From Solirubrobacter pauli (GTDB lineage Bacteria > Actinomycetota > Thermoleophilia > Solirubrobacterales > Solirubrobacteraceae), in assembly GCF_003633755.1 (NCBI RefSeq), contig NZ_RBIL01000002.1, positions 868,001 through 932,000 of the forward strand: 64,000 nucleotides of DNA, in the 5' to 3' direction. Of the stretch, positions 36,582-60,622 are shown piece by piece (the first letter of the stretch is position 1; each line of letters starts with the position of its first letter). The notes below the pieces were generated by a model, which was not told where the DNA came from, searched no databases, and saw only the letters and a list, made by a program, of their open reading frames with translations. The position numbers and the translations under genes were made by a program.

Positions 36582-37832
36582 TCACCCGGGGCTGCTGGTC
36601 AGCTCCTGGACCTTGAGCGCCAGGAAGAGGATCTGCAGGTCGTGCATGAGCGTCGGGTCGCGGCCGCTCACCGTCGCGATCCGGCGTAGCCGGTACACGA
36701 CGGTGTTGGCGTGCACGGTCAGCACGGCGGCGCTCCGGGTCAGGTTGGCGCCCGAGTCGACGTAGGCGCGCAGCGTCGGCAGCAGCTCCGCGCGATGGTC
36801 GCGGTCGTAGTCGATCAGCGGCTGCAGCGTGTCGCGCAGGATCCGCTGGGCGTGCGGGCTCGAGCGCACCATGTGGTCGACGAGGACGTCGTCGAGCGTC
36901 ACGGCGCGCCCCTGGATGCCCATCCCGACCGCGATGTCCACCGCTTCGCGGGCTTCGGCGTAGGCGGTGGCGATCGCGCGCCGGCCGAGGTGCCAGCCGC
37001 TCATGCCGACGGCGACGGCGCCGTCGAGCCGGCGGCTGAGCTCAGAGCACTCGGCCCTGACCGTCTCGATCGTCAGCGGCGTCGCCGCCGGGTAGAGCGC
37101 GACGACGTCGCCCTGGCGGACCCCCACCAGGAGCGCGGCGTGGCCGGGTTGCAGCACGTCGCGTGCGGTGGTCACGACGCGGTCGAACGTCAGCGCGTCC
37201 TGGTACGGCGGCTTGCGGCTGTCGTCGCGCGGCGTGTCCTTGGGGCGCGCCACGATCACGATGAAGTCCTCGCCGATCCGCCGGTGCAGGGACCGGGCGA
37301 TCCGGCGGACGTTCTCGCTGTCCCCGCGGCCGGCGAGCAGCCCGTCGAGCAGATCGCGGCTGAGCAGCCCGCGGTGGTTGACCTCGTCCAGGTAGGCGTG
37401 CGCGATCGTGTTGGCGACGGCGTCGATGTAGCGCCAGGCCCGCTGCCCGATCTCGAGCGCGGCCTCGACCTCGTCCGGGTCGTCGATCTCGACCACCTCG
37501 AGCAACATCTCCCACAGGGTCTCGCCCCAGAGCAGGGCGGTGCGCAGCAGCGCCTCGAACGAGATGCCCATGTGCACGCGCCGCGCGCCGACCGCCCGCG
37601 CGGACGCGAGCAGCGCCTCGCTGACCGGCTCGTTGCGGGTGACGCCGGACAGGAACGCCTCGACGTTGGCCTGCGCGAAGCCGCGCGCCTCGTCGAGCTC
37701 GGCCTCGTCGAGCTGCTGGAAGCCGACGAGCCACTCCCGGTAGCGATCGACAGCGCGGCTGGCGATCTCGTCGCTGCGCGTGCACAGCCGCTGGACGACC
37801 ACGACGAGCGCCTGCTCGCGGCTCTTGCTCAC
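36582..37832 (-). CDS. PucR family transcriptional regulator
   Basis: About 416 residues. The C-terminal PucR helix-turn-helix is clear: LRAYVDSGANLTRSAAVL then TVHANTVVYRLRRI. The middle has the GGDEF-like/CdaR region of this family (VAVGMSGWHLGRRAIATAYA then EAREAVDIA). The N-terminal 150 residues are helical (RsbR-like). PucR proteins control genes for nitrogen compounds or hydroxy acids. It diverges from the PHB-depolymerase-like esterase with a 12-bp perfect palindrome between them, so control of the esterase is plausible. The start is uncertain: GTG 37832 is preferred, since ATG 37925 would leave 12 bp to the divergent gene. Confidence 0.82.
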   Translation of the reverse strand: MSKSREQALVVVVQRLCTRSDEIASRAVDRYREWLVGFQQLDEAELDEARGFAQANVEAFLSGVTRNEPVSEALLASARAVGARRVHMGISFEALLRTALLWGETLWEMLLEVVEIDDPDEVEAALEIGQRAWRYIDAVANTIAHAYLDEVNHRGLLSRDLLDGLLAGRGDSENVRRIARSLHRRIGEDFIVIVARPKDTPRDDSRKPPYQDALTFDRVVTTARDVLQPGHAALLVGVRQGDVVALYPAATPLTIETVRAECSELSRRLDGAVAVGMSGWHLGRRAIATAYAEAREAVDIAVGMGIQGRAVTLDDVLVDHMVRSSPHAQRILRDTLQPLIDYDRDHRAELLPTLRAYVDSGANLTRSAAVLTVHANTVVYRLRRIATVSGRDPTLMHDLQILFLALKVQELTSSPG

Positions 37833-37895
37833 CGCCACGATCGCAACCGGACGCTTGCGGATCCTACGAACGGCACCCTTCGGAGTCCTCGGTTT

Positions 37896-37907
37896 GCCCA
37901 ATTGGGC
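37896..37907. promoter_or_regulatory. Palindrome between pucR and the esterase gene
   Basis: GCCCAATTGGGC is a perfect 12-bp palindrome 30 bp upstream of the esterase ATG and 63 bp upstream of the preferred pucR start. Candidate PucR operator. Confidence 0.4.
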
Positions 37908-37937: not shown

Positions 37938-39146
37938 ATGCGAATCAGCTTTGCCCGAGCTGGTGTCGCAGCGGCGTGCGCGCTGCTGGCGGCGACCATC
38001 TCGCTCACACCCGGGGTGGCCCACGCCGCCGCCGGAGGCACGCTCACGACCGGCACGTACGCGAACGCCGCCGGAGAGCTCAAGTACCAGCTCTTCGTCC
38101 CCTCGAGCTACCAGCCGGGCACGTCCGTCCCGTTGGTCGTCGGACTCCACGGCTGCACCCAGACGTCCGACAAGTTCCGCCTGCTGTCCCGGCTCGACGA
38201 GCTCGCCGCCGAGCGCAACTTCATCGTCGTCTATCCGGAGCAGCCGTCGTCCAGCAACCGGCTGGGCTGCTGGAACTGGTACACGGCCGCGCACGTGAGC
38301 CGCGACGCGGGCGAGCCGTCCCTGATCGCGGGGATCACGAGGACCGTGCAACAGGCCTACGGCGCGGACGCCAAGCGCACGTTCGTCACGGGCCTGTCGG
38401 CCGGTGGGGCGATGGCGACGGTGATGGGCGTGACCTACCCCGACCTGTACGCCGCGGTCGGCGTCGGCTCGGGGTGCGAGTACACGGGCGGTGCCGCGTG
38501 TGCGGGCTACAAGAGCGACGACCCGGAGCTGGCCGGCAAGCGCGCCTACGACGCGATGGGCGCTTACGCGCGCGTGATGCCGTTCATCGTCTTCCAGGGC
38601 GACGAGGACAAGACGGTCCCGCCGGTCAACGCGGACCAGCTCGTGCGCTCGCAGCAGGTCGCGTCCGACTACGCCGACGACGGCAGCAAGAACGGCTCGA
38701 TCCCGCAGAAGGCGGTCAAGACGACCACCGGACGCAAGCAGGGCGGGCGGCAGTACACGACGCGGCTGTACTCCGACGGCAAGGGCCATGAGCTCGGCCA
38801 GTACTGGACCGTGCACGGCATGGCGCACGCCTGGTCGGGTGGCAGCGCGGACCAGCAGTACTCGGACCCCGCGGGCCCGGACGAGAGCGCGGCCATGTAC
38901 GACTTCTTCCTCAAGCATCCGCTCGGCGAGCCTGGTCCGCCGCTGGGCGGTGGCGGCACGACGCCGGGCATCCCGGGCGCCCCTCAGCCGAGCTGGCCGA
39001 TCCCGGAGTGGCCGCCACCCGGAGCTCCCGGCCTGCCTCAGCTGCCCGGGATGCCCGGCCTGCCGCAGCTGCCGGGGATGCCGCAGCTGCCCGGAATGCC
39101 GCAGCTGCCGGGCCTGCCCGGCTGGCCGAAGCCGTCGCGCGGCTGA
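37938..39146 (+). CDS. Secreted PHB-depolymerase-family esterase with Pro/Leu/Gly/Met tail
   Basis: A 402-residue exported alpha/beta-hydrolase. After the signal peptide come the oxyanion region PLVVGLHGCTQ, the lipase box GLSAGG with Ser154, the acidic DEDKTVPPVNADQL block and the catalytic His in WTVHGMAHAWSGG. This places it with PHB depolymerase, feruloyl and acetylxylan esterases of type Esterase_phb. It could act on extracellular polyhydroxybutyrate or on plant esters. The last 75 residues are a Pro-rich tail ending in repeated LPGM/LPGL units. ATG at 37938 is at the signal peptide; no Shine-Dalgarno. Probable control by the divergent PucR. Confidence 0.88.
   Translation: MRISFARAGVAAACALLAATISLTPGVAHAAAGGTLTTGTYANAAGELKYQLFVPSSYQPGTSVPLVVGLHGCTQTSDKFRLLSRLDELAAERNFIVVYPEQPSSSNRLGCWNWYTAAHVSRDAGEPSLIAGITRTVQQAYGADAKRTFVTGLSAGGAMATVMGVTYPDLYAAVGVGSGCEYTGGAACAGYKSDDPELAGKRAYDAMGAYARVMPFIVFQGDEDKTVPPVNADQLVRSQQVASDYADDGSKNGSIPQKAVKTTTGRKQGGRQYTTRLYSDGKGHELGQYWTVHGMAHAWSGGSADQQYSDPAGPDESAAMYDFFLKHPLGEPGPPLGGGGTTPGIPGAPQPSWPIPEWPPPGAPGLPQLPGMPGLPQLPGMPQLPGMPQLPGLPGWPKPSRG
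39061..39130 (+). repeat. Tandem LPGM/LPQLPGM codon repeats in the esterase tail
   Basis: Degenerate 12-21 bp units encode LPQLPGMP, PQLPGMP and PQLPGLPG in a row. The tail is disordered and may span the cell wall or bind polymer. Confidence 0.6.
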
Positions 39147-40852: not shown

Positions 40853-41650
40853 TCAGAGGCGCCGGAAGCGCCACGTGGCGAGCACCGCGGAGACGACCAG
40901 GATCCCCACGGACCACGCGAGCGCCGACGGCACCGCGGCGGTGGTGTCCGCGCCGGAGCTGAGCTCCCGGAGCGCGTCGGCCACCCGCGTGACGGGCTGC
41001 GCCTCCGCGATCGACCGCAGCCAGCCGGGGAACGTCGCCGGCGACGTGAAGATCGACGAGGCGAAGACGAGCGGGAAGGTGACGATGAAGCCGAGCATCG
41101 TCGCGCTCTCCGCGTTGCGCGCGGCGAGGCCGACCAGCGTGAACAGCCACGAGCAGGCGTAGCCGAACAGCAGCGCGACGCCGAGGCCGGCCGCGACCTG
41201 CGCCGGCGTGCCGCCGAAGCGGAAGCCGACCAGCAGGCCGAGGGCGATCAGGATCCCGATCGTGTACGCGAGCCGCAGCAGGTCGGCGAGCGTGCGCGCG
41301 GCGAGGATCGCCGTGCGACTCGTCGGCAGCGCGCGCAGGCGGTCCGTCACCCCCTTCGCGAGGTCCTCGGCGACGCCGACCGCGGAGGATGAGCCGCCGA
41401 ACAGCGACGTCTGGATGATGATCCCCGGGATCAGGTAGTCGACGTAGCTCGGATAGCCCGGTACGTGGATCGAGCCGCCGAACACGTAGCGGAACAGCAG
41501 CACGAACATCACCGGCGTGATCGTCGCGAGCGCCAGCAGCTGCGGCGTGCGCAGCGCCAGCCGCAGGTTGCGGCCCGTGAGCAGCAGCGTGTCGCTGACG
41601 AAGGCGCGCGGCCCACCCGTGCGGGCGCGGATGATCATCGGAGCGCTCAT
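40853..41650 (-). CDS. ABC-2 type exporter permease (DrrB-like)
   Basis: A 265-residue protein with six membrane segments and the ABC-2 signature around GVTDRLRALPTSRTAILAAR. It would form the channel of a drug, lipid or polyketide exporter with the ATPase encoded just upstream (ATGA overlap, 4 bp). DrrB-type permeases export daunorubicin and similar compounds, but the substrate here is unknown. A secreted Thr-rich protein gene comes first in the same operon. Confidence 0.9.
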   Translation of the reverse strand: MSAPMIIRARTGGPRAFVSDTLLLTGRNLRLALRTPQLLALATITPVMFVLLFRYVFGGSIHVPGYPSYVDYLIPGIIIQTSLFGGSSSAVGVAEDLAKGVTDRLRALPTSRTAILAARTLADLLRLAYTIGILIALGLLVGFRFGGTPAQVAAGLGVALLFGYACSWLFTLVGLAARNAESATMLGFIVTFPLVFASSIFTSPATFPGWLRSIAEAQPVTRVADALRELSSGADTTAAVPSALAWSVGILVVSAVLATWRFRRL

Positions 41651-42639
41651 GCGGCCGCCTCGCTCGGCTTGCGGACCGTGTGCACCCACGCGCCGGGGAG
41701 CGCGGCGCCGGTCAAGGTCAGGAACACGTCGTCGAGCGATGGGCCGCGGACCCCGAGGTCGGCCACGGGGATCTCGGCCTCCTCGATCCGCCGGGCGGCG
41801 GCGAGCAGCGTGGTCACGCGCTCGGTCGCCGGCACGGTCACCTTCTGCGCGCGCACGTCGACGACGGGCTTGCCCGGGCCGAGGCCGCGCAGCAGCTTCG
41901 CGAGCCGGTCCAGGTCGGCGGGGCGCGTCGCACGCACCTCCAGCACGTCGGTGCCGACCCGGCGCTTGAGCTCGTCCGGGCGGCCTTCGGCGATCACCGC
42001 GCCGCGCTCGATGATCACGATCCGGTTCGCGAGGCGGTCGGCTTCCTCGAGGTACTGCGTGGTCAGCAGCAGCGTCGTGCCGTCCCGGATCAGGTCCTCG
42101 ATCAGCGTCCACAGCTCGGCCCGCGAGTGCGGGTCGAGGCCCGTGCTCGGCTCGTCCAGGAGCAGGATCGGCGGCCGTCCGGTGAGGCTCGCGCCGAGGT
42201 CGATCCGGCGCCGCATCCCGCCCGAGTAGGTCTTGACCATGCGGTCGGCGGCGTCGGTCAGCCGCAGGCGCTCGAGCACCTCCTCGGCGCGGAGCTTCGC
42301 GGTGCGCCGGTCGAGGCCGTAGAGCCGGCCGACGAGCTCGAGGTTCTCGCGCCCGGTCAGCATCTCGTCGACGGCCGCGAACTGGCCGGCGAGGCCGATC
42401 ACCGAGCGGACGGTGGGGGCGTCGCGGACGGCGTCGATGCCGGCGATCCGGACCGACCCCGCGTCGGGCGCGAGCAGGGTCGAGACGATCCGGACGAACG
42501 TCGTCTTGCCGGCGCCGTTGCGGCCGAGCAGCGACAGCACGGTGCCGGTCTCGACGCTCAGGTCGACGCCGTCGAGGGCCGTCACCGAGCCGAAGGCCTT
42601 CCGAAGCCCTTCGGCGATGATCATGGGGGTGCTGGACAC
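41647..42639 (-). CDS. ABC exporter ATP-binding protein (DrrA-like)
   Basis: A 330-residue ATPase. Walker A LGRNGAGKTT, the Q-loop at GLAGQFAAVDEML, signature YSGGMRRRIDLG, Walker B PILLLDEPSTGLDP and the C-terminal DUF4162-like extension (LEVRATRPADLDRLAKLLRG) match the DrrA subfamily. GTG at 42639 follows AAAGGAG at 5 nt. It is translationally coupled to the permease and probably co-transcribed with the upstream Thr-rich secreted protein (15-bp gap). Likely energises efflux. Confidence 0.92.
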   Translation of the reverse strand: MSSTPMIIAEGLRKAFGSVTALDGVDLSVETGTVLSLLGRNGAGKTTFVRIVSTLLAPDAGSVRIAGIDAVRDAPTVRSVIGLAGQFAAVDEMLTGRENLELVGRLYGLDRRTAKLRAEEVLERLRLTDAADRMVKTYSGGMRRRIDLGASLTGRPPILLLDEPSTGLDPHSRAELWTLIEDLIRDGTTLLLTTQYLEEADRLANRIVIIERGAVIAEGRPDELKRRVGTDVLEVRATRPADLDRLAKLLRGLGPGKPVVDVRAQKVTVPATERVTTLLAAARRIEEAEIPVADLGVRGPSLDDVFLTLTGAALPGAWVHTVRKPSEAAA

Positions 42640-43636: not shown

Positions 43637-45469
43637 ATGTGTGGCATCACCGGTTGGATCGCGTTTGACCGTGACCTCGCCACCGAACGGCCCGTCGTCG
43701 ACGCGATGACGGAGACGATGGCCTGTCGCGGCCCGGACGCGGCGGGGACCTGGATCGACGGCCACGCCGCGCTCGGCCACCGACGGCTCGCGATCATCGA
43801 CCTCGACGGCGGCGTGCAGCCGATGACCGTCCACACGCCCGACGGTCCGGTCTCGATGGTCTACAGCGGCGAGGCTTACAACTTCCGCGAGCTGCGCGAC
43901 GAGCTCCAGGCCGCCGGCGTGGGCTTCCGCACCGACAGCGACACCGAGGTCGTCCTGCGCGCGTACGTCCACTGGGGCGACGGCCTCGCCGAGCGGCTCA
44001 ACGGCATGTACGCGTTCGCGATCTGGGACGGGCGCCGGCAGCGGCTCGTGCTGATCCGCGACCGCCTCGGGATCAAGCCGCTGCTCGTCTACCGGACGCC
44101 CGACGGCGTGCTCTTCGGCTCCGAGCCCAAGGCGATCCTGGCCAACCCGCTCGCGCGCCGCGTCGTCACCGCCGACGGCCTGCGCGAGCTGTTCGCGTTC
44201 GTCCGCACGCCACGTCACGCCGTCTGGGCGGGCATGCGGGAGGTCGAGCCGGGCACCGTGCTCGCCGTCGACCGCGACGGCCTGCACGAGCGCCGCTACT
44301 GGGCCCTGCGCACGCACCCGCACGAGGACGACCTCCCGGTCTCGCTCGCCCACGTGCGCGACCTGCTCGACGACATCGTGCGCCGCCAGCTGATCGCCGA
44401 CGTGCCGCGCTGCGTCCTGCTCTCCGGCGGGCTGGACTCGAGCGTCGTCACCGCGCTCGCCGCGCAGTTCCTGCGCGAGGACGGCGAGCGCGTGCGCAGC
44501 TTCGCGGTCGACTTCGTCGGGCAGACGGAGCGCTTCCAGGCCGACGGGCTGCGCCCGACGCCCGACACGCCCTACGTGCACGACGTCGCCGAGCACGTCG
44601 GCGCCGCCCACACCGACATCGTGCTCGACAACGAGACGCTGACGGACCCGGACCTGCGGCGCCGGGTGATCGCCGCGCACGACCTCCCGGTCGGCCTGGG
44701 CGACATGTACGCGTCGCTGTACCTGCTCTGCCAGGCGATCCGCGAGCGCTCGACGGTGGCGCTCTCGGGCGAGTCGGCCGACGAGCTCTTCGGCGGCTAC
44801 CAGCAGTTCCACGACCCCGTCATCCAGCACGCGCACGCGTTCCCGTGGCTGGCGGTCGGCCAGACGTTCGGCATGCACCCGGACGCGATCCTCGCCCCGG
44901 ACGTCGCCGCGCTGCTCGACCTGCCCGGATACCGCGCCGCGGCGTACGAGAGCGCGATCGCCGAGGTCGAGCACCTCGACGGCGAGACCGGGCTCGAGGC
45001 GCGCATGCGCACCGCCACGTACCTGCACGTCACGCGTTTCCTGCGCTACCTGCTGGACCGCAAGGACCGCATGAGCATGGCGGTCGGGCTGGAGGTGCGC
45101 GTGCCGTTCTGCGACCACCGGCTGGTGGAGTACGTGTACAACGCGCCGTGGGCGATGAAGACCTACGACGGCCGCGAGAAGAGCCTGCTGCGCGGGGCGG
45201 CGCGCGACCTGTTGCCGCGCTCCGTCGCCGAGCGGGTCAAGAGCCCGTACCCGTCGACGCAGGACCCGCACTACCTCGCGGCGCTGCAGGTGCAGGCGCG
45301 AGCGGTGCTCGAGCGCGCGGGCGGCGTGCTCGAGCTCGTCGACCGCGGCTGGCTCGAGCGTGCGGTGCAGCCGGCGGCGCCGCTGTCGGTCGGCGATCGG
45401 CACGGGCTCGAGTGGACGCTGAACCTCGACACCTGGCTCGACGTCCACGAGCCGCAGGTCCTGGTGTGA
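43637..45469 (+). CDS. asnB: Asparagine synthase (glutamine-hydrolysing)
   Basis: A 610-residue protein. The N-terminal class II glutaminase starts MCGITGW, so Cys2 becomes the nucleophile after Met removal, and includes MACRGPDAAGTW and YSGEAYNFRELR (usually YNGE-x-YN). The synthetase part has the ATP motif LLSGGLDSSVV and SGESADELFGGYQQF. It makes asparagine from aspartate, ATP and glutamine; a related role in amidating a secondary metabolite is possible. ATG at 43637 follows ACGGAGG at a good distance. It is a single-gene unit ended by a 16-bp hairpin. Confidence 0.93.
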   Translation: MCGITGWIAFDRDLATERPVVDAMTETMACRGPDAAGTWIDGHAALGHRRLAIIDLDGGVQPMTVHTPDGPVSMVYSGEAYNFRELRDELQAAGVGFRTDSDTEVVLRAYVHWGDGLAERLNGMYAFAIWDGRRQRLVLIRDRLGIKPLLVYRTPDGVLFGSEPKAILANPLARRVVTADGLRELFAFVRTPRHAVWAGMREVEPGTVLAVDRDGLHERRYWALRTHPHEDDLPVSLAHVRDLLDDIVRRQLIADVPRCVLLSGGLDSSVVTALAAQFLREDGERVRSFAVDFVGQTERFQADGLRPTPDTPYVHDVAEHVGAAHTDIVLDNETLTDPDLRRRVIAAHDLPVGLGDMYASLYLLCQAIRERSTVALSGESADELFGGYQQFHDPVIQHAHAFPWLAVGQTFGMHPDAILAPDVAALLDLPGYRAAAYESAIAEVEHLDGETGLEARMRTATYLHVTRFLRYLLDRKDRMSMAVGLEVRVPFCDHRLVEYVYNAPWAMKTYDGREKSLLRGAARDLLPRSVAERVKSPYPSTQDPHYLAALQVQARAVLERAGGVLELVDRGWLERAVQPAAPLSVGDRHGLEWTLNLDTWLDVHEPQVLV

Positions 45470-45471
45470 GC

Positions 45472-45512
45472 CGGTCGCCCGGGCGCGGCGGTCGAGCGCG
45501 CCCGGGCGACCG
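45472..45512. terminator. Perfect 16-bp bidirectional hairpin between asnB and phaB
   Basis: CGGTCGCCCGGGCGCG (45472-45487) pairs perfectly with 45497-45512 around a 9-nt loop. It fills the gap between the two convergent stop codons. No U-tract on either strand. Confidence 0.7.
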
Positions 45513-45514
45513 CG

Positions 45515-46339
45515 TCACATCTCCATGCCGCCGTTGACCGCGATCACCTGGCCGGTGATGTACGCGGACGCGTCCGACACGAGGAACTCGACCGCGCGGG
45601 CGACCTCCTCGGGGCGGCCGAGCCGGTTGAGCGGCACCTGCGCGCGGATGCCGTCGAGGACCTTCCCGGGCACGGTCGCGAGCATGTCGGTCTCGACGAA
45701 GCCGGGGGCCACGGCGTTGACGGTCACGTTGCGCCCGTCGGGGTCGAGCCGCTCCGCGCGCTTGAGCATGAACGCCGCCTCCTTGGCCAGCGACATCGTC
45801 AGCCCGAACAGCCCCGACTTGGACGCGGCGTAGTTCACCTGGCCGACGTTGCCCGTCTGCCCGATGATCGAGGAGATGTTCACGATCCGGCCGGCGGCCT
45901 GCTCGAGCATGTGCGGCAGCGCCGCCTGCGCGGTGAAGAACGCGCCCGACAGGTTGACCGCGAGCACGCGGTGCCAGTCGTCGTCGCTCATCCGGAGCGT
46001 GATCCGGTCGGCGGTGATGCCGGCGTTGTTGACCAGGATGTCGAGGCGCCCGCAGCGGTCGAGCACCTCCTGCACCGAGCGCCGGCACTCGTCGGGCGAG
46101 CTGATGTCGCTGCGGTGGACCGAGATCGGCACCTCGGTCCAGGCGCAGTCGGCCGTGAAGCGGGCCGCGGACGCCTCGTCGTGCGCGAAGCCGGCCACGA
46201 CCGTCGCGCCGCGCGCCGCCAGCCGCCGGCTGATCGCGGCGCCGATGCCGCGGGTCCCGCCGGTGACGAACGCGACGCGCCCGGACAGGTCGTCGTCCAG
46301 CTTCGGCGCGGTCTCGCCGTGGGTCTCGATGATGGCCAT
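45515..46339 (-). CDS. phaB: Acetoacetyl-CoA reductase / 3-oxoacyl reductase (PhaB type)
   Basis: A 274-residue short-chain dehydrogenase. TGGTRGIG is the NADPH motif, NNAG is at LVNNAGITAD, the active site has ISSIIGQ (Ser) and YAASK (Tyr, Lys), and the C-terminus is VNGGMEM. It reduces acetoacetyl-CoA to 3-hydroxybutyryl-CoA, the PHA monomer. The assignment over FabG rests on the phasin gene 5 bp upstream and PhaA and PhaC elsewhere in the window. ATG at 46339 has no Shine-Dalgarno and is probably coupled to the phasin stop. Last gene of the NmrA, regulator, phasin, phaB operon. Confidence 0.88.
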   Translation of the reverse strand: MAIIETHGETAPKLDDDLSGRVAFVTGGTRGIGAAISRRLAARGATVVAGFAHDEASAARFTADCAWTEVPISVHRSDISSPDECRRSVQEVLDRCGRLDILVNNAGITADRITLRMSDDDWHRVLAVNLSGAFFTAQAALPHMLEQAAGRIVNISSIIGQTGNVGQVNYAASKSGLFGLTMSLAKEAAFMLKRAERLDPDGRNVTVNAVAPGFVETDMLATVPGKVLDGIRAQVPLNRLGRPEEVARAVEFLVSDASAYITGQVIAVNGGMEM

Positions 46340-46344
46340 GGCGA

Positions 46345-46614
46345 CTAGGGGGCCAGGACCTGGCGGGCGAACCGGCTGGAGGCGCTGAGCATGTCGCGGG
46401 CGAACGCGGCGCGGGCCCGCAGCAGGCGGCTCATCCACTCGACGTCAGTCGCGTCGGCCAGCTTGTCGTCGGCGTCGGCGAACATCCCGAGCGTCTGCTC
46501 CATGGCGTCGGTGGCCTCGAGCATCGTCTTGCGGCCACTGGCAAGCAGCTCCTCGTGGCCGACGCGGAGCGCCGCCACGATCTTCTCCGGGTCCTGCGTG
46601 AACGTCTCTGGCAT
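46345..46614 (-). CDS. Phasin-like PHA-granule protein
   Basis: An 89-residue helical protein (ALRVGHEELLASGRKTMLEA, then TDVEWMSRLLRARAAFARDM). The 'LxxGxEExxxxxKxxxE...A...ARxxF' layout and length are phasin-like: such proteins coat polyhydroxyalkanoate granules. The 5-bp gap to phaB is the strongest support. A second phasin-like gene lies at 58595-58867 beside PhaC. ATG at 46614 follows GGGAG. Sequence similarity within this family is weak, so context carries much of the call. Confidence 0.78.
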   Translation of the reverse strand: MPETFTQDPEKIVAALRVGHEELLASGRKTMLEATDAMEQTLGMFADADDKLADATDVEWMSRLLRARAAFARDMLSASSRFARQVLAP

Positions 46615-46627
46615 GGGGGTCTCCCTG

Positions 46628-47320
46628 TTAGGCAGCGCGTTGCATGGGGGATGGGGGCGTCGCCGGGACCGCGTGACGCTGCGGCACGCGGACGGCGGGT
46701 TGCAGCAGCCCGAGCTGCTGCCCGTGATGGACGGCGGCCGCGCGGTTGCGCACGTCCAGGCGCCGGTAGATCAGCGTCGTGTGGTGCTTGACGGTGTCCA
46801 CGGACAGCCCGAGGATCTGAGCGATGGTGCGGTTCGTCGCGCCCTGCGCCATCAGCTCGAGGATCTGCTGCTGACGGCCGGAGAGCGCGCCGCGCGCCAC
46901 GTCGGAACGCCAGACGAACGGGTCCTCGCCCATGGCGACGGTGCGGATGCTGTTGACGAACTCCGTGGCGGGGACGTCCTTGGCGACGAAGCCCAGGGCG
47001 CCCGCCTCGCGCGCGGCGTGCTGGGTGATCGAGCGCGCGCTCGACGTGAGCAGCACGCGCACGTCGCGGGCGCGCTCGCAGATCGCGGCCGCGATCTCGG
47101 TGCCGAACTCGTCTCCGACGAAGAGGTCGATGACCGCGACGCGCGGGGCGTGGCGCTCGGCGAGCAGGACGGCGTCCGCGCCGCGGCGCGCGCCGATGAT
47201 CCGCGTCACCCACTCCTGGCGTTGCAGGACGACGCGCAGGCCGACATGGATCAGGTCCTGGTTGTCGACGAGCAGGACGCTGCCGCGGGCGGGGAACTTC
47301 ACGACGGCCATGCGGGTCAC
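46628..47320 (-). CDS. NarL/FixJ-type response regulator in the PHA operon
   Basis: A 230-residue regulator. Receiver domain residues about 12-130: LLVDNQDL, phosphorylatable Asp65 in VIDLFVGDEFG, LLTSSA and the Lys in GFVAKDV. The usual acidic pair near the N-terminus is reduced to DN. The LuxR helix-turn-helix is at about 155-215 (LSGRQQQILELMAQGATNRT, then LSVDTVKHHTTLIYRRLDV). GTG at 47320 overlaps the NmrA gene stop by 4 bp, and the phasin gene starts 13 bp after its stop. This places a two-component regulator inside the phasin-PhaB operon. Its kinase is not adjacent. Confidence 0.88.
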   Translation of the reverse strand: MTRMAVVKFPARGSVLLVDNQDLIHVGLRVVLQRQEWVTRIIGARRGADAVLLAERHAPRVAVIDLFVGDEFGTEIAAAICERARDVRVLLTSSARSITQHAAREAGALGFVAKDVPATEFVNSIRTVAMGEDPFVWRSDVARGALSGRQQQILELMAQGATNRTIAQILGLSVDTVKHHTTLIYRRLDVRNRAAAVHHGQQLGLLQPAVRVPQRHAVPATPPSPMQRAA

Positions 47321-48195
47321 GTGTACGTGAGGAGGTCGCCGCGGTGCGCGATCAGGACGTCCCGCAACGTGGTGGGGGACTGGCCGGTGATCGCGGTCGC
47401 CGCCGGGTCGACGACCTCGTAGTAGCCCTCCCGGATCGCGCGGCCGAAGGCGGCGATCGCCTTCGCGACCGGCTTGGGCGCGCCGTTGCGGGTCAGGCCC
47501 CAGGTCAGCACGCGGTCGCCGAGCTGGATCAGCTTGACCGCGCGGCCGCTGACCTCGGAGAGCAGGTCGACCAGCTCGCTCTGCGAGATCGCCTCGCCGG
47601 AGGTGACGTCGTAGGTCTGCTCCTCGTGGCCGTCGGTGGTGAGCACCGTGGCGGCGACGCGGGCGACGTCGTGGCGGGACACGTACCCGAGCCGCCCGTT
47701 GCCGGCGTTCGTGTAGAGCTTGCCGCCGGCGACGGCGAGCGCTCCGGGCTGCACCTGCAGCTCCGCGAAGGTCGCGTTGCGCAGGATGGTCCAGGAGACC
47801 TTCGTGGCGCGCAGGATGTCCTCGGTCTGGCCGTGCTCGGTGGCGACCGGGCCGACCGGGTGCCGCGGGACCGGGTTCAGGAACGACGTGTAGACCACGT
47901 GCTCCACGCCGGCGGCCACGGCGGCTTCGATGGCGGCCTGGTGCTGCGCGACCCGCCGGCCCACGGCCAGCGTGCTGATCAGCAGCATCTGCTCCCCACC
48001 GGCGAACGCGGCAGGCAGGGTGTGCGGCGCGTCGAAGTCGCCGTGGCGCACCGTGGCGCCACGCGCGGTCAGGTCCTGCAACGCCTCGGGGTGGCGCGTC
48101 ACGAGCACCAGCTCCGAGGCGGGCGACCGCTCGAGCAACTCCTCCGCGACGAGGCGCCCGAGGTGTCCGGACGCCCCGGTGACGATCGTCGACAC
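47317..48195 (-). CDS. NmrA-like NAD(P)-binding oxidoreductase (quinone-reductase-2-like)
   Basis: A 292-residue atypical short-chain dehydrogenase. TIVTGASGHLGRLVAEEL is the dinucleotide-binding motif, GDFDAPHTL follows, and GVEHVVYTSFLN replaces the classical YxxxK site, as in NmrA and QOR2 proteins. It may bind NAD(P) as a redox sensor or reduce quinones. GTG at 48195 follows GGAGA at 7 nt. First gene of the operon with the response regulator, phasin and phaB; a redox link to PHA synthesis is an inference. Confidence 0.82.
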   Translation of the reverse strand: MSTIVTGASGHLGRLVAEELLERSPASELVLVTRHPEALQDLTARGATVRHGDFDAPHTLPAAFAGGEQMLLISTLAVGRRVAQHQAAIEAAVAAGVEHVVYTSFLNPVPRHPVGPVATEHGQTEDILRATKVSWTILRNATFAELQVQPGALAVAGGKLYTNAGNGRLGYVSRHDVARVAATVLTTDGHEEQTYDVTSGEAISQSELVDLLSEVSGRAVKLIQLGDRVLTWGLTRNGAPKPVAKAIAAFGRAIREGYYEVVDPAATAITGQSPTTLRDVLIAHRGDLLTYT

Positions 48196-48438
48196 AGGCA
48201 ATCTCCGTTTCTTGTGAGCCGGCGCGCGGGGTACGCGGCGCTCGACGGCAACGAAGCTATGGCCGCGCTGGCCCGAATGGGACTGGTCCGAGCGCCAGCT
48301 CGACCCGCCCAACGGGGCGGCCCTTCGACGCGCGGGGCACAAGGGCCGGTGGGTGCGCGTCCTCGGTCCAGTGTGCCGGTCGCCGGGGCGGGGCGACATT
48401 GACGGACAGCCTGCCCCCTACCGACAGGACCTTTCGGA

Positions 48439-49608
48439 ATGCACAACATCACGTCTCCCGGACGCCTCAACGGCCGGCGTGTCGTGCCGGCCGCCGCGGC
48501 GGCGTTGACCGCCGTGGCGCTGGCCGCGCCGGGCGCGAACGCGCAGACCTCACCGATCGCCGTCGACGTCGCCCAGGACTCCGTGCTCGTGACCGGGCTG
48601 CCGTTCGGCCAGGCGAAGCTGCAGATCACGCGTCCGGACCTCCGGACCGGGTCGCCGGTCGTGATCGGCGAGATCTCGGGCCTCTCGCTCTTCGGCTTCC
48701 CGTTCGGGGCCAACACGACCGCGCCGACGTTGCTGAACCCGCTCGGCGACTGCTGGCAGGCGGGCGTGCTCGCCCTCGCCAACAACGCGGGCCTGACGCC
48801 GGACATCCTGCCCGGTGACACGGCCACGGTCGTGGGCGGCCCGACCTACACGGTGCCCGCCGACACGCCGCTGTCCAACGGCTCACCCGGCGGCCCGATC
48901 TCCGGCTGCGACACGGTGTCCCTGTTCGGCAAGAACATCGTCACCGACGCGCAGTTCTCCGGTCCGGGCACCGACCTGGCCGTCGCCGGACACGCGCAGC
49001 CGGGAGCCAAGGCCGTCTCGGTGTTCGTCAAGGACGCGAACGGCGTCGCGTCCGAGCCGGTCGACGCCACGCTCGCCGCCGACGGCAGCTACACCGCGAC
49101 GGTCCCGGTGGCGAAGCTCGCCGGGCTCGCCGACGGGAAGGTGACCGTCGCCGGCGACTACAACATCCCGGATGTCGCCACCGGCACGCTGGCCCACGTC
49201 GGCGGCGTGACGATGGAGGCCGAGAAGAGCACCCCGGCCGCCCCGCCGCGCAGCGAGCCGCCGGCCAACCCCGGCCCGCCGGCGGCACCGGCGAAGATCG
49301 CCCTGTCCGGCCTGTTCATGCGGTCGGCGATCAAGGCCAAGTCCGTCGCCGCGGGCAAGCTCCGCGTGTCGTTCATCACCCCGACCGGCGCCCAGTTCGT
49401 CCGCGTCCGCCTGTGGCGGCCCGGCCAGACCGCGGCGCTGAACGTCGTCGCCGCCGGCACGCCGGGCAAGCGCCAGACCGTGGCGTTGACCGGCGCGAAG
49501 GCGAGCAAGCTCAAGAAGGGCGCGACCTACAACGTGACCGTGAGCGCCAGCCCGCTGAAGACGATGTTCGTCGGCCCGTCGCTGCGAGCCAAGGTGCGCA
49601 TCCGCTAG
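48439..49608 (+). CDS. Secreted protein, paralogue of the 19.2-kb gene, with shared C-terminal module
   Basis: A 389-residue exported protein with the signal peptide RVVPAAAAALTAVALAAPGANA. Its blocks DSVLVTGLPFGQAKLQITRP, GSPVVIGEI, LGDCWQAGVLAL and GLTPDILPGDTATV align end to end with the 390-residue protein at 19207-20379. It lacks the Pro-rich linker's length but has the same C-terminal module (KLRVSFITPTGAQFVRVRLW, then RQTVALTGAKASKLKKG). Function unknown. It diverges from the NmrA operon and ends in a 13-bp hairpin. ATG at 48439 precedes the hydrophobic core. Confidence 0.75.
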   Translation: MHNITSPGRLNGRRVVPAAAAALTAVALAAPGANAQTSPIAVDVAQDSVLVTGLPFGQAKLQITRPDLRTGSPVVIGEISGLSLFGFPFGANTTAPTLLNPLGDCWQAGVLALANNAGLTPDILPGDTATVVGGPTYTVPADTPLSNGSPGGPISGCDTVSLFGKNIVTDAQFSGPGTDLAVAGHAQPGAKAVSVFVKDANGVASEPVDATLAADGSYTATVPVAKLAGLADGKVTVAGDYNIPDVATGTLAHVGGVTMEAEKSTPAAPPRSEPPANPGPPAAPAKIALSGLFMRSAIKAKSVAAGKLRVSFITPTGAQFVRVRLWRPGQTAALNVVAAGTPGKRQTVALTGAKASKLKKGATYNVTVSASPLKTMFVGPSLRAKVRIR

Positions 49609-53443: not shown

Positions 53444-53581
53444 CCTCGGGTTCCCTCTCCAGCGGACACTGGACCGCAAGGCTGTGCCCGATCGCGCTCG
53501 ACGGCCACTGTCCCGAGGACCGGGTGGACCGCCCGCATGGGACAGCGGCGGGCCGCGCGCGACGCGCTTAGCGTCCCGCGG

Positions 53582-54871
53582 ATGGACCAGCCCGTCATCG
53601 TCAGCGCGCTGCGCACGCCCGTGGGCACCTTCGGCGGCGCCTTCAAAGACATCCCCGCTCCGGCGCTCGCCGCTCACGCGATGCGCGCGGCGCTCGAGCA
53701 GGTCGACCTCCCACCGGACGCCGTCGACGAGGTGCTGCTCGGCTGCGTGCTGCAGGCCGGCCTCGGCCAGAACCCGGCACGTCAGGCCGCGATGGCGGCC
53801 GGCATCCCGCAGGAGGTGCCGGCGACCACGATCAACATGCTCTGCGGCTCGGGCCTGAAGGCCACGGCGCTCGCGGCGCAGATCATCCGCGCGGGCGACG
53901 CCGACGTCGTCGTGGCGGGCGGCATGGAGAACATGTCGCGCGCGCCGTACCTCGCGCCCACCGCGCGCTTCGGCGCGCGCATGGGGGACGCGGTGCTGAT
54001 CGACTCGATGGTCAGCGACGGGCTCACCGACGCGTTCCACGAGGTCCACATGGGCGTGACGGCGGAGAACGTCGCCGACCAGTTCGGGATCACGCGTGAC
54101 GAGCAGGACGCGTTCGCGGCCGGAAGCCAGCGGAAGGCCGAGCAGGCGCTCGCCGAGGGCGTCTTCCGTGACGAGATCGTGCCGATCGAGATCGTCGAGC
54201 GGCACGGCATCCGCGTCGTCGACACCGACGAGGCGCCGCGGCCCGGGACGACGATGGACGTGCTGGCGCGGCTGCGGACCGCGTTCCGCCCCGACGGCGG
54301 GACGGTCACGGCCGGGAACGCGTCGGGCCTCAACGACGGGGCCGCGGTGGTGGTCGTGATGTCGGCGCGCAAGGCGGTCCAGCTCGGCCTCGAGCCGCTG
54401 GGCACGGTCGAGAGCCACGCGTCGGTCGGCGTCGACCCGGCGGTCATGGGCATCGGGCCCGTGCCGGCCGTGCGCATGGCGCTCGCGAAGGCCGGGGTGG
54501 ACCTCGCCGACGTCGACGTGTTCGAGCTCAACGAGGCGTTCGCGGCGCAGTCGCTGGCGGTCATCCGCGAGCTCGGCCTGGACCCGGAGCGGGTCAACCC
54601 GCACGGCGGCGCGATCGCGCTCGGGCACCCGATCGGCGCCAGCGGCGGCCGGATCCTCGTCAGCCTGCTGCACCAGATGCGCCGGACGAACGCCGAGCGC
54701 GGGGTGGCGGCGCTGTGCGTGGGCGGTGGCCAGGGCCAGGCGGCGGTGATCCGCAACGGCGTGCACGCGATCCCGGGGCGGACCGCCGCCGACGCCGCCC
54801 GCCTCCGGCTCGCGGCGCAGCCGGGGTTGGACGTCGGCCGGCCGGCCGTGTCATTGACGGTCGACTCGTGA
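53582..54871 (+). CDS. Acetyl-CoA acetyltransferase (PhaA-type thiolase) with C-terminal extension
   Basis: Condenses two acetyl-CoA to acetoacetyl-CoA, the first step of polyhydroxybutyrate synthesis. Catalytic residues are Cys88 (NMLCGSGL), His349 ([12 protein letters not shown]) and Cys379 (ALCVGGGQG). The usual thiolase end at [10 protein letters not shown] is followed by about 35 extra residues, so the protein has 429 instead of about 393. The other PHA genes are 8 kb upstream and 4-5 kb downstream. ATG at 53582 begins the standard '[11 protein letters not shown]' start. A 39-codon frame overlaps its stop. Confidence 0.93.
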
Positions 54872-56289: not shown

Positions 56290-58329
56290 TCACGCGCGCG
56301 GCCGCAGCCGTCGCGACACGAGCGCGGGCACCGCCAGCAGCACGAGGAGCGCCGCGATCGCGTAGGGCGCCGCCGACCGCACCTGCTTGGCCGTGGGCTT
56401 CAGGAACGCGAACGGCCCGGTCTCCACCGGCTCCGGCCGCGCCGCCTGGTGCCCCGTCCCGCGAGTGCGCGCGGTCGTGCCGTCGGCGGCCGCGGGCGCG
56501 GCCGCCCCGATCCCGGGCACGACCCGCACCGGGGTCACCGGCCCGACGAATCCATTGACGCCCGAGGAAGGCGCCGGCCCGAACCGACCCGGCCCGACGA
56601 CGCTCACGCCGGGAGTCCGCGCCTGGCCGGAGACGCCCGGCCCGGAAGGCACGGCGGGCCCGTAGATCCCGCTCCCGGGCACGCCGGCGCCGCCACCCGG
56701 AGCCCCGGGCACCGCATCGCCCGGACCGGGCACGACCGGCAGACCCGGAGCCGGCCCACCGCCCGCCGGCCCGTCAGCACCGCCGGACGGCCCACGTCCG
56801 CCACCCGAGGGTCCGCGTCCGCCGCCGGAAGGTCCACGCCCACCGCCCGAGGGCCCGCGCCCGCCGCCAGAAGGCCCGATGATCGGCCCGACGCCGCCAC
56901 CACCAGGCCCGATCGGCCCGCCACTGCCGGGCCGATCCCCGCCCGCGCCGCCGTGCCCGGGCCCGTCGCCGCGTCCGCCGCCGTCGTGGCCACCGCGCCC
57001 GCCACCGGGTCGCTCGCCGCCGTCGTGGCCACCGCGTCCACCGCCGGGCCGGTCGCCGCGTCCGCCGCCGTCGTGGCGACCGCCGCCGCGGCCGGGTCGC
57101 TCGCCGCGTCCGCCGCCGTCGTGGCCGCCGCGCCCGCCGCCCGGCCGGTCGCCGCGTCCGCCGCCGTCGTGGCCGCCGCGTCCGCCGCCGGGCCGGTCGC
57201 CGCGTCCGCCGCCGTCGCGTCCGCCGCGCCCGCCGCCGGGCCGCTCGCCGCGTCCGCCACCGCTGTCGCCAGGCCTGCCGCCTTCGCCGCCGCCGTGGCC
57301 GGGGTTGTCGCCGCGTCCGCCACCGCTGTCGCCAGGCCTGCCGCCTTCGCCGCCGCTGTGGCCGGGGTTGTCGCCGCGTCCGCCACCGCCGGGGCCGTCA
57401 CCACGACCCCCGCCGCCGGGGCCGTCACCACGACCCCCGCCGCCTGGGCCGTCACTGCGCCCGCCGCCGCCGTGGCCAGGGCCGTCACCACGACCCCCGC
57501 CGCCTGGGTTGTCGCCGCGTCCTCCGCCGCCTGGGCCGGCACCGCCGCCTTGTCCGCCGCCTGGGCTCTCGCCGCGACCGCCGCCGCCTGGGCCGGGGCC
57601 ATCGCCGGGGCTCTCGCCGCGACCGCCGCCGGGGTTGTCACCGCGTCCGCCACTGCCAGGGCCCGCGCCGTCACCGCCGGCGGGACCGGAGCCGCCATGG
57701 CCGCCGCGCCCGCCGCCGGGGGCTGCACCGCCGCCATGATCGCCAGGTCCCTCGACGTGGCCGGCGCCGTCGTCGCGTCCGCCGCCCTGGTTGGGGCCGG
57801 ACCCTCCACCGTTGCCGGGGCCGCGGTCGGCAGGGTTGCCGCCGCCGGGGTCGGGCCCTTCACCGCTCCTGGGGCCGCCGCCACCGCCAGGGCCGCCGCC
57901 GCCCGGGCCGGAGCCGCCGTCAGATCCGGCTTGTCCGGCGCTGCGATCAGGGCCGGGGCCACTGCGGCCGCCGCTGTTCCCAGGGCCGCTGTCGCCGCGG
58001 AGGCCGACGCCGCTCTGGCCGGCGCTGTCATCGCGCTCGCCGGCCGGACCCGGGGCGCTCGTGGGCACGTCGTAGGTCGTGCCGCCCGGTGGGGTTGCGG
58101 CGAAGGGGCGGACGGCTTCGACCCCGGGCGGCCCGCCGTTCGCGTCGGGCGCGAGGCGGGCGGCCAGCGGGGGGTTCGGGGTCGTCGTCAGGCCCGGGAA
58201 GCGGGCCTGGTCGGTGGGGACCGTGGGGCGGGCGGCGTGGCCGTCCGTGTCGAGAGTCAGTGCGGCGGCCGCCAGGACGGCGCAGGCCGCGACTCCGGGG
58301 AGGAGCCGATGGGTCGAGACGCGGGGCAT
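56290..58329 (-). CDS. Large Gly/Arg/Asp low-complexity surface protein with many RGD motifs
   Basis: A 679-residue protein. A signal or anchor sequence at the N-terminus and a C-terminal membrane segment with basic tail (APYAIAALLVLLAVPALVSRR, simplified: hydrophobic then RRLRPRA) flank a central region of about 400 residues made almost only of Gly, Arg, Asp, Pro, His and Ser. The repeats vary GGRGDxPGGGRGGHDGG, giving about 20 RGD tripeptides. There is no LPXTG sortase motif. Antisense and shifted frames are also open because the DNA is repetitive, but only this frame has both export signal and anchor. Possible adhesive or hydrophilic wall-spanning protein. Confidence 0.65.
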   Translation of the reverse strand: MPRVSTHRLLPGVAACAVLAAAALTLDTDGHAARPTVPTDQARFPGLTTTPNPPLAARLAPDANGGPPGVEAVRPFAATPPGGTTYDVPTSAPGPAGERDDSAGQSGVGLRGDSGPGNSGGRSGPGPDRSAGQAGSDGGSGPGGGGPGGGGGPRSGEGPDPGGGNPADRGPGNGGGSGPNQGGGRDDGAGHVEGPGDHGGGAAPGGGRGGHGGSGPAGGDGAGPGSGGRGDNPGGGRGESPGDGPGPGGGGRGESPGGGQGGGAGPGGGGRGDNPGGGGRGDGPGHGGGGRSDGPGGGGRGDGPGGGGRGDGPGGGGRGDNPGHSGGEGGRPGDSGGGRGDNPGHGGGEGGRPGDSGGGRGERPGGGRGGRDGGGRGDRPGGGRGGHDGGGRGDRPGGGRGGHDGGGRGERPGRGGGRHDGGGRGDRPGGGRGGHDGGERPGGGRGGHDGGGRGDGPGHGGAGGDRPGSGGPIGPGGGGVGPIIGPSGGGRGPSGGGRGPSGGGRGPSGGGRGPSGGADGPAGGGPAPGLPVVPGPGDAVPGAPGGGAGVPGSGIYGPAVPSGPGVSGQARTPGVSVVGPGRFGPAPSSGVNGFVGPVTPVRVVPGIGAAAPAAADGTTARTRGTGHQAARPEPVETGPFAFLKPTAKQVRSAAPYAIAALLVLLAVPALVSRRLRPRA
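56940..57680 (-). repeat. GC-rich tandem codon repeats encoding GGRGD/GGHDGG units
   Basis: Degenerate 15-39 bp units (GGCGGACGCGGCGA-like on the minus strand) repeated many times. The array is prone to slippage and to assembly error, so its length should be treated with care. Confidence 0.7.
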
Positions 58330-58594: not shown

Positions 58595-58867
58595 TCAGGA
58601 GTCGATGAAGTCACGGATCGTGGTCACGTAGGCGTCGCAGACGTCGCGCCGGATCGCGGCGCTGCTCTCGGCGATCGGCACGAGCGCCGGCACCTTGGCG
58701 GCCCGGGCGCTCTCGACCTGGGCGTCCGCGAGCCGGCTGACCGTCGAGCTGTAGAGGTCGAGGTAGCGGTGCGTGACCTGGCGCGTGGTCTGGCGCCAGC
58801 GCTCGAGCGAAGCCGGGATGTCGACGCCGCCGAAGAGGTCCGTGTCAATCGGAGTCTGAGTGCTCAT
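58595..58867 (-). CDS. Phasin-like PHA-granule protein (divergent from phaC)
   Basis: A 90-residue helical protein: IPASLERWRQTTRQVTHRYL, then SSTVSRLADAQVESARAAKV and a final DVCDAYVTTIRDFIDS. It shares length and layout, not close sequence, with the phasin at 46345. Its position, divergent from the PHA synthase with about 170 bp between, supports a granule-coat role. GAGGTCCTC lies just upstream of the ATG. The intergenic DNA contains the TGGGCCAACGGCC element. Confidence 0.75.
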   Translation of the reverse strand: MSTQTPIDTDLFGGVDIPASLERWRQTTRQVTHRYLDLYSSTVSRLADAQVESARAAKVPALVPIAESSAAIRRDVCDAYVTTIRDFIDS

Positions 58868-58979
58868 GAGGTCCTCCCGTCTTTGAGGCCACCCCCTTGA
58901 CCGAGGTGACCCTGATGGCGCCGAAAGCTAGGACGGTCTCGGCCGCCGGACCACCTCTCGCACCGCCACATCACCCATT

Positions 58980-59032
58980 TGGGCCAACGGCCGCGCGGGG
59001 CGTGGACCCGGCTCCTCGCGCTCGGCTACAAG
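58980..59032 (+). promoter_or_regulatory. TGGGCCAACGGCC element (copy 2) and -10-like TACAAG before phaC
   Basis: The exact 13-mer (58980-58992) is preceded by ACCCATT, part of CCC-ATTT-GGG. TACAAG at 59027-59032 lies 6 nt before the ATG at 59039 and could be a -10 box for a leaderless transcript. An in-frame TTG at 58979 would place the element inside the gene. Confidence 0.4.
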
Positions 59033-59038: not shown

Positions 59039-60622
59039 ATGCTCGCTCCTCTCGCCGATCTCGTGGCCCCGCGGCGGCTCGTCACCGAATCGATGCGCGC
59101 GACCGGCGAGCTGGCCCGGATCGCGATCGGCCGCTCCGACGTCGCGCCCGCACCCACCGACCGCCGCTTCGACGATCCCGCCTGGACGCTGAACCCGGTG
59201 TACCGCCGCTGGGCGCAGACCTACCTGACGTACAGCGGCGTCCTCGACCGGCTCGCGGAAGCGCCCCGCCACCAGGGCGACTGGCGCCGCGCCGAGCGCG
59301 CCCGCTTCGTCGCGAAGCTGCTGGCCGACGCCACCGCGCCGACGAACACGCTCGCCGGCAACCCGGCTGCGCTCAAGCACGCGTTCGACACCGGCGGGGT
59401 GAGCTTGCTGCGCGGCGCGCGCAACGCCACCCGTGACGTCGTCCGCAACCACGGCCTGCCCAAGCAGGTCGACCGCCGGCCGTACGTCGTCGGCGAGAAC
59501 CTGGCGGCCACGCCCGGTGCCGTCGTCTACCGCGACGACGTCTTCGAGCTCGTCCAGTACGCGCCGTCCAGCGCCTCGGTGCAGACGCTGCCCGTCCTGA
59601 TGATCCCGCCGCAGGTCAACAAGCACTACTTCCTCGACCTCGCGCCCGGCCGGAGCATGGTCGAGTACCTCGTCGCCCGCGGCCTGCAGTACTTCACGGT
59701 CGTCTGGCGCAACCCGACGCAGGCCGACGGCGGCCGCTCGATCGACGACTACGTCGCGGCGCAGCTGCGCGCGGTCGACGTCGTCCTCGAGATCACCGGT
59801 GCCGAGTCGCTCAACCTGATCGGCGTCTGCGCCGGCGGCCTGACGACCGGCCTGATGCTCGGCCACCTCGCCGCGACCGGCCAGGCGGAGCAGGTGACCT
59901 CCGCGACGTTCGCGATCAGCATGATCGACACGCGGCACCCCAACCCGATGGGCATGCTCGCCACCGGCGACGTGCTGCGCGACGTGGCGCGCGACGCGGA
60001 CGCCCGCGCCGTCTACGACCGCCGTCGGATCGGCCGCGCGTTCGCGTGGCTGCGGCCCGACGACCTCGTCTTCAACTACGTCGTCAACGACTGGCTGATG
60101 GGCAAGGACGCGCCCGCGTTCGACATCCTCGCGTGGAACGACGACGGCTCGGACCTGCCCTCGCGCTTCTTCAGCGAGCTGCTCGACCTGTACGTCCACA
60201 ACCACGCCGCCCAGCCCGGGCGCGTGGACGTGCTCGACGTCCCGGTCGACCTGCGGTCCGTCACCTGCGACAGCTTCGTCGTCTCCGGCATGCGCGACCA
60301 CATCACGCCGTGGGACTGCGGCTACGAGACCGCCCGGCTGCTCGGCGGCCGCAGCGAGGTCGTCGTCACGACGACCGGTCACATCCAGACGATGGTCAAC
60401 CCGCCCGGCAAGCCGCGGGCGCGCTACTTCGCCGGCCCTGAGCCGGGCCCCGAGCCGCAGCAGTGGCTCGACGCGGCGACCGAACACGAAGGCTCGTGGT
60501 GGCCGCGCTATGCGGACTGGCTGCTCCATCGCTCCGGCGAGGGTCGTGCGGCTCCGGGGCGGCTCGGCAGCCGCCGCCACCGGGTGTTGGACCCGGCGCC
60601 CGGTCGCTACGTGCACGGCTGA
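59039..60622 (+). CDS. phaC: Polyhydroxyalkanoate synthase (PhaC, class I/II-like)
   Basis: Polymerises 3-hydroxyacyl-CoA into PHA on the granule surface. The 527-residue protein has the PhaC_N region (DRRFDDPAWTLNPVYRRWAQ), the lipase-like box GVCAGG with nucleophile Cys264, Asp420 in SGMRDHITPW and His448 in TTGHIQ. PPQVNKHYFLDLAPGRSMVE and YFTVVWRNPT are PhaC hallmarks. No phaE or phaR is nearby, so a single-subunit synthase. ATG at 59039 is chosen over TTG 58979 because of the upstream element. It ends 4 bp from a convergent small gene. Confidence 0.93.
   Translation: MLAPLADLVAPRRLVTESMRATGELARIAIGRSDVAPAPTDRRFDDPAWTLNPVYRRWAQTYLTYSGVLDRLAEAPRHQGDWRRAERARFVAKLLADATAPTNTLAGNPAALKHAFDTGGVSLLRGARNATRDVVRNHGLPKQVDRRPYVVGENLAATPGAVVYRDDVFELVQYAPSSASVQTLPVLMIPPQVNKHYFLDLAPGRSMVEYLVARGLQYFTVVWRNPTQADGGRSIDDYVAAQLRAVDVVLEITGAESLNLIGVCAGGLTTGLMLGHLAATGQAEQVTSATFAISMIDTRHPNPMGMLATGDVLRDVARDADARAVYDRRRIGRAFAWLRPDDLVFNYVVNDWLMGKDAPAFDILAWNDDGSDLPSRFFSELLDLYVHNHAAQPGRVDVLDVPVDLRSVTCDSFVVSGMRDHITPWDCGYETARLLGGRSEVVVTTTGHIQTMVNPPGKPRARYFAGPEPGPEPQQWLDAATEHEGSWWPRYADWLLHRSGEGRAAPGRLGSRRHRVLDPAPGRYVHG

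Follow-up and report, generated by a model that had tools for sequence, protein, structure and literature searches.

Does a response regulator whose gene lies among polyhydroxyalkanoate (PHA) genes control the formation of storage granules, and where would its signal come from? This question is raised by four genes in a stretch of 64,000 nucleotides from Solirubrobacter pauli (NCBI RefSeq assembly GCF_003633755.1, contig NZ_RBIL01000002.1, positions 868,001 to 932,000), which is referred to here as the window and whose own numbering is used throughout. All four lie on the minus strand and encode, in order, an NmrA-like NAD(P)-binding reductase (47317-48195, GTG start; PF13460, PF05368), a response regulator (RR) of the NarL/FixJ type (46628-47311, ATG start; PF00072, PF00196), a phasin-like protein of 89 amino acids (46345-46614), and a PhaB/FabG-type short-chain reductase (45515-46339; PF13561, PF00106). 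The gaps between them are 5, 13 and 5 bp, in agreement with a preliminary description of the locus, in which they had been put at no more than 13 bp. An alternative GTG start at 47320 would make the RR gene overlap the NmrA stop codon by 4 bp. A codon-usage gene model trained on the window favours each of the four genes, and a scan of 45400-48600 found no terminator-like or sigma-70-like sites. We infer that the four genes are co-transcribed as one unit. Our proposal, to which we give an even chance of being right, is that the RR works without a kinase and as a dimer, that its own operon determines how much of it is made, and that it controls this operon and perhaps also the PHA synthase gene phaC.

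The RR exceeds the cut-offs for both domains of its family (PF00072, 43.3 bits versus 30.2; PF00196, 58.1 bits versus 23.5). Its best full-length relative of solved structure is DesR of Bacillus subtilis (E 1.4e-18); the solved structure at the top of the list belongs to a repeat protein and is matched only over short stretches resembling a helix-turn-helix (HTH). The catalytic positions are D16, N17, D62, S90 and K111, in which the active-site aspartate, the serine and the lysine are kept; S90 was read from the alignment, and the aligned serine is common to orthologues and paralogues. A canonical phosphorylated receiver has D, D, D, T/S and K at these five positions, and the RR departs from it at N17. 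The acidic pair, within LLVDNQD (residues 16-17), is thus DN, as had been noted before. The second metal-binding acid (DD2) is Asn in all three orthologues but Asp in 19 of 19 sister paralogues, and because DN is fixed in this way, atypical phosphorylation, which the preliminary description had suspected, is likely. Since DD2 is Asn, the RR is a pseudo-receiver by the definition given in the accessible part of PMC12632262, namely a recognised receiver without any one of the five residues. According to the same part of that source, DD2 binds the metal directly, pseudo-receivers make up about 6% of bacterial receivers, and their switching is little understood. Like the RR, they have one of the five residues gone, and the accessible part contains no PHA-linked example. 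As DD2 is without an acidic residue in about 80% of pseudo-receivers and is the position where this happens most often (PMC12632262, accessible part), N17 is not rare in itself. The informative point is its fixation in a duplicate without a kinase, and N17 is no proof that phosphorylation is absent.

The origin of the regulator can be followed within the same genome. Its nearest paralogue there (46.6% identity, locus L067) is overlapped by a gene for a GAF-HisKA_3-HATPase kinase, which is followed by FabH, FabG, acyl carrier protein-like, FabF-like, FabI-type and reductase genes; the small acyl carrier protein-like gene and the FabF-like gene were named from position and sequence. This pair, linked to type II fatty-acid synthesis (FAS), recurs in the 18 fetched relative loci (L021-L038), which are the best-match loci, with 31 further RR matches having no locus. 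A kinase adjoins the RR gene in all 18, and FabH or FabG lies within the 1.5 kb flank in 12. In a tree of 30 rows, the three PHA-operon RRs form a clade (support 100/100, branch of 1.33 changes per site) that falls inside a 22-row clade (100/100) together with 19 FAS-linked RRs; the bootstrap is not fully settled, long outgroup branches meet, and the order inside the 22-row clade is unsettled, with “nested within” and “sister to” unseparated. Rather than an ordinary two-component regulator, the RR is a fast-evolving orphan paralogue that falls within the clade of the GAF-kinase/RR pair. The FAS-linked pair has the adjacent kinase, the DD motif (19/19) and often FabH or FabG nearby, whereas the PHA copy is without all three. 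No kinase gene adjoins the RR gene in S. pauli or in the related genome of the same genus (G002), and the two-component input put forward in the preliminary description is doubtful when set against the 18 of 18 sister loci with a kinase. DesR, a regulator of membrane lipid desaturation with the same REC + GerE layout, works with the adjacent kinase DesK and with phosphorylation; unlike DesR, the RR has neither a kinase neighbour nor DD2. All three PHA-operon RRs differ at 16 positions that 18 or more of the 19 sisters have in common, among them W23 in receiver helix 1 and P171, E176 and K184 in the HTH. The helix 1 tryptophan, invariant in the sister clade, is V, V and I in the three.

A C-terminal extension of the RR (46628-46690) is found also in the two orthologues (L055, L057), whereas none of the 19 FAS-linked paralogues, as extracted, has it. 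The three extensions differ in the middle, but all end in Ala-Ala (QRAA, RRAA, QIAA). Proteins ending in AA number 25 among the 390 called in the RR's own genome. The Ala-Ala end is a possible degron.

The gene order is conserved in G002, where the genes for NmrA, RR, phasin and PhaB stand on one strand in the same sequence (73, 65, 54 and 72% identity). A condensation-domain gene is placed between phasin and PhaB, a PucR-type gene follows 16 bp behind PhaB, and phaC lies about 8 kb beyond PhaB. The preliminary description would have been contradicted if no relative had kept the order; G002 keeps it with one extra gene. In G028, a genome from another genus of the same family, NmrA precedes the RR, which is halved by two contig ends, and a convergent kinase gene follows in the place of phasin. 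A phasin search of this genome, which is 75% complete, gave no match. Among the first 61 genomes, the RR has orthologues only in S. pauli itself (G000), G002 and G028 (64-68% identity; next best 48%). At E 1e-55, a cut-off that hides the split copy of G028, it was found in 2 of 232 genomes of the order and in 1 of 399 of the class, namely its own. It is missing from five of the seven same-genus genomes and from nearly all others searched. PhaC_N exceeded its cut-off in 10 of the 61 genomes. A PhaC close to that of the window occurs only in G002 (64%) and G028 (66%), other full-length PhaC proteins showing 39-43%. Because these three genomes alone hold both, the RR and the window-type PhaC co-occur in 3 of 3 cases.

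Upstream of the operon, the box CTGGCGCTCGGACCAGTC (48281-48298, minus strand) stands 21 bp before TAGCTT (48254-48259) in an ungapped alignment of the three genomes. An exact match to the 18-mer is present a single time in each of G000 and G002, at the NmrA promoter in both. Common to G000, G002 and G028 are GCTGSCGCTCGG, CA.TC and TAnnTT at ungapped, fixed spacing, with the TA 21 bp after the box. A 7-2-7 inverted repeat, which is the architecture of NarL sites, may be seen in the box, whose position fits an activator. As a genome-wide regulon motif, CTGGCGCTCGGWCCAGTC was rejected: with up to two mismatches it was found at 9 places versus 9 for the reversed control in G000 and at 4 versus 7 in G002, and we take it as a conserved element of the operon promoter and no more.

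Another element is shared by several PHA promoters of the window. The near-palindrome CCCATTCGGGC lies in the operon promoter (48271-48281, minus strand), CCCATTTGGGC in the phaC promoter (58974-58984, plus strand), CCCATGCGGGC upstream of the phaA-like thiolase (53531-53541, minus strand), and the perfect palindrome GCCCAATTGGGC (37896-37907, no strand assigned) between a PucR-type regulator and a gene resembling polyhydroxybutyrate (PHB) depolymerases. The upstream regions of phaC in the three genomes have ATCACCCRTTYGGGC, GTGGAC and GGCTAMA in common. The pattern CCCANNYGGGC occurs at 7 distinct places in the window, 6 of them intergenic, and at 14 places in 400 kb of the same genome, 2 of them intergenic. 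The intergenic ones are upstream of NmrA, phaC and phaA, in the gap between the PucR-type and depolymerase-like genes, and before two secreted-protein-like genes. Of 400 permuted patterns, one had at least 6 intergenic places and none had at least 5 places with 80% intergenic. This test is exploratory, the pattern having been read from two of its sites; when these are left out, 4 of 5 places are intergenic, and 11.7% of the window is intergenic.

In the explanation that we favour, the four genes would form one transcription unit for making PHA granules. The RR would descend from a duplicate of the conserved GAF-kinase/NarL-type pair beside the fatty-acid-synthesis genes; this copy would have parted from its kinase gene and given up the acid at the second metal-binding position, residues of the receiver helix and of DNA recognition would have changed, and it would have become a dedicated regulator of the PHA genes of its lineage. 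It would act mainly without phosphorylation of the aspartate, as a dimer in an amount set by its own operon, and bind the conserved box that precedes the putative -10 of that operon by about 21 bp, and possibly a CCCRTTYGGG element at phaC. By such binding, granule coat, monomer supply and synthase would rise together. What we observe are the gene order, the orphan state, the changed residues, the phylogeny and the conservation of the promoters; DNA binding, the targets and the lack of phosphorylation are predictions of this explanation. If it is true, a duplication, the uncoupling from a kinase and a move from fatty-acid to storage-polymer control can be traced, the genome still having the canonical copy for comparison, and the conserved box upstream of NmrA offers a concrete promoter. 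In a stronger version, which we think unlikely, the RR would be a dosage-controlled master switch of PHA, free of phosphorylation and derived by duplication from a regulator of fatty-acid synthesis, that has given up its kinase and its Mg2+ ligand, resides in the granule-coat operon so that its own level serves as the signal, and drives its own operon through CTGGCGC-TC-GGACCAG and phaC, phaA and the depolymerase gene through CCCRNNYGGG; here the Ala-Ala tail may add proteolytic control.

Several observations weigh against the favoured explanation. Because the gaps from NmrA to PhaB in G002 are wider (97, 15, 287 and 100 bp), a single transcript is less certain there. D62, S90 and K111 are kept in the RR, so that weak or metal-altered phosphorylation may occur. 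The NmrA promoters of G002 and G028 lack CCCATTYGGGC, and since this element occurs at 11 places in G002 (control 1), with 3 of the 8 fetched places intergenic by the gene caller, it is not a clean regulon mark in that genome. No site is tied to the RR, and PucR, the last gene of the G002 cluster, or LuxR-HTH proteins could bind these promoters.

The three kept residues would also suit a functional two-component regulator, in which a distant kinase, perhaps the GAF kinase linked to FAS or else the window's CHASE-PAS-GAF kinase (30803-33631), phosphorylates D62 despite N17, so that PHA follows a fatty-acid signal. The kinase of the sister RR is encoded in the same genome (L067), and in G028, the only one of the three genomes with a kinase gene by the RR, a PAS-type kinase gene converges on it at a distance of 20 bp, its product being 44% identical to the window kinase. 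However, the metal-binding position DD2 (PMC12632262, accessible part) is Asn in all three orthologues, the tryptophan of helix 1 is replaced in each, and G000 and G002 have no adjacent kinase. The window kinase was considered as the cognate one and is not called so, because kinases 45-47% identical to it are found at other loci too. We regard this possibility as rather unlikely, and are similarly doubtful of another, that the RR is a passenger, transcribed together with the PHA genes through chance insertion and controlling something else, while PHA is governed by the PucR-type or LuxR-HTH regulators. The patchy occurrence of the RR within its genus and beyond and the PucR gene behind PhaB in G002 would agree with such a passenger, as would a precedent in the pha cluster of Pseudomonas extremaustralis, where a LuxR-type regulator sits in an insertion unrelated to PHA (PMC4041789, accessible part). 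Its co-occurrence with the window-type PhaC speaks against this, and so does the order kept between G000 and G002 (NmrA and RR at 65-73% protein identity) even though a gene has been inserted and the neighbourhood rearranged.

The NmrA-like protein suggests yet another input, redox sensing. Fungal NmrA is a modulator of a regulator, and by this model the protein would bind NADP(H) and modulate the RR or another regulator, so that the NADPH state sets PHA synthesis. It belongs to the NmrA-like family (PF13460, 87 bits; PF05368, 63.4 bits versus a cut-off of 27), with a fold and Pfam matches of NAD(P)-binding type. Its best solved relatives, however, are triphenylmethane reductase (TMR, E 1.6e-45) and YtfG (E 5e-38), both of which we take to be catalytic NAD(P)H reductases, whereas an entry called NmrA family transcriptional regulator matches far less well (E 2.2e-10). 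Relatives with 59% identity are found in genomes of two other genera, G009 (L097) and G199 (L096). A gene of 112-122 amino acids, PhaE-like by position alone and with no match in Pfam, begins 5 and 6 bp behind NmrA there, and next comes a PhaC that scores highest with the class III model TIGR01836 (290 and 279 bits; cut-off 365). The RR is absent from both sets, and because NmrA sits in these PHA operons without it, its role is independent of the RR. The other fetched loci of NmrA relatives (L098-L105) have neither PhaC nor phasin alongside. In these genera, NmrA seems to be the PHA partner of longer standing, and the RR a lineage-specific addition. Large proteins with a C-terminal LuxR HTH also adjoin NmrA genes in G002, G028, G009 and a second G199 locus (L056:1972-3213 +; L058:1560-2945 +; L097:6670-8106 +; L099:8525-9862 -), their N-terminal parts showing no clear Pfam domain. 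This vicinity, like that to PHA genes in G009 and G199, would be compatible with sensing; even so, we consider redox sensing very improbable. In our reading, the protein most probably is a reductase that uses NADPH and accompanies PHA genes, and not the sensor. The redox input of the preliminary description finds no support beyond this kinship with NAD(P)H-dependent reductases. A pair of ABC transporter genes (40853-42639, minus strand) is likewise conserved (61-71%) near the NmrA/PHA genes of G002, G009 and G199, with no evident role in PHA.

The four genes named in the preliminary description were all recovered, but no curated model calls “phasin” or “PhaB” outright, and both roles are suggested by relatives and context. 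The 89-residue protein has no Pfam or NCBIfam match and none to PF09361 even at E 1, and a search of solved structures with the phasin profile gave nothing convincing. Of its family, 13 members were aligned, and nine of these hit Phasin_2 (PF09361) with E values no higher than 1 (best 5.3e-6); relatives also occur within sets of PHA genes (L106, L062). The PhaB-like protein stays below the cut-offs of the acetoacetyl-CoA reductase models (TIGR01829, 273.4 of 302.1; NF042966, 185 of 436) and of the FabG model TIGR01830 (279.7 of 297.75). Its matches to solved structures lean towards FabG (best E 1.3e-63; first acetoacetyl-CoA reductase entry E 1e-54), and relatives of 61-67% identity occur in the PHA neighbourhoods of L062, L064, L066, L096 and L106.

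The operon belongs to a PHA cluster with dispersed genes. Its phaC gene (59093-60622, plus strand) encodes a class I/II-like synthase (PF07167, 173 bits; TIGR01839, 554 bits, and TIGR01838, 442 bits, both under the cut-off) and lies outside the operon, about 11 kb away on the opposite strand, so that the locus is not a classical phaCAB operon. A second phasin-like gene (58595-58867, minus strand), aligned with the phasin family, is divergent from phaC, as is its counterpart in G002 (50% identity). The cluster also comprises the phaA-like thiolase (53582-54871, plus strand; PF00108, PF02803; TIGR01930, 484 bits versus a cut-off of 240.55) and the PHB-depolymerase-like gene (38016-39146, plus strand).

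Other response-regulator inputs to PHA, namely GacS/GacA, NtrB/NtrC, CbrA/CbrB and Rre37, and regulators dedicated to PHA, PhaQ and PhaD among them, are covered in the accessible part of PMC9049629. The former are global or act across pathways, whereas the RR gene lies inside the phasin-reductase operon; no response regulator inside a PHA operon is described among the regulators in that part. The earlier statement that PHA operons usually lack a two-component regulator fits these regulators, but has to be qualified by the P. extremaustralis case (PMC4041789, accessible part), in which the LuxR-type regulator lies within the pha cluster as the RR does, in a fimbrial insertion that its authors considered unrelated to PHA. 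Conservation of order and promoter is the distinguishing feature of the RR. In open-licence papers, we found no description of the NmrA-RR-phasin-PhaB arrangement and nothing that joins phaC, phasin and NmrA.

Some neighbouring genes have relatives in other PHA neighbourhoods. The PucR-type regulator (36582-37838, minus strand), divergent from the PHB-depolymerase-like gene, has its 48% relative behind PhaB in G002, and a condensation/PapA-type acyltransferase (62194-63486, minus strand), perhaps a link to wax esters or lipids, has a 60% relative in the gene inserted between phasin and PhaB there. An Asn-synthase-like gene (43637-45469, plus strand) converges with the operon and has a 72% relative in the PHA neighbourhood of G199 (L096). 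An Ala/Pro-rich open reading frame (56604-57737, minus strand) with a very low coding score (21 for 377 amino acids) and no Pfam match may not be a gene. Two secreted-protein-like genes (19207-20379, minus strand; 48439-49608, plus strand) are alike in the N-terminal parts of their products, and the second diverges from the PHA operon, with which it has the intergenic region in common.

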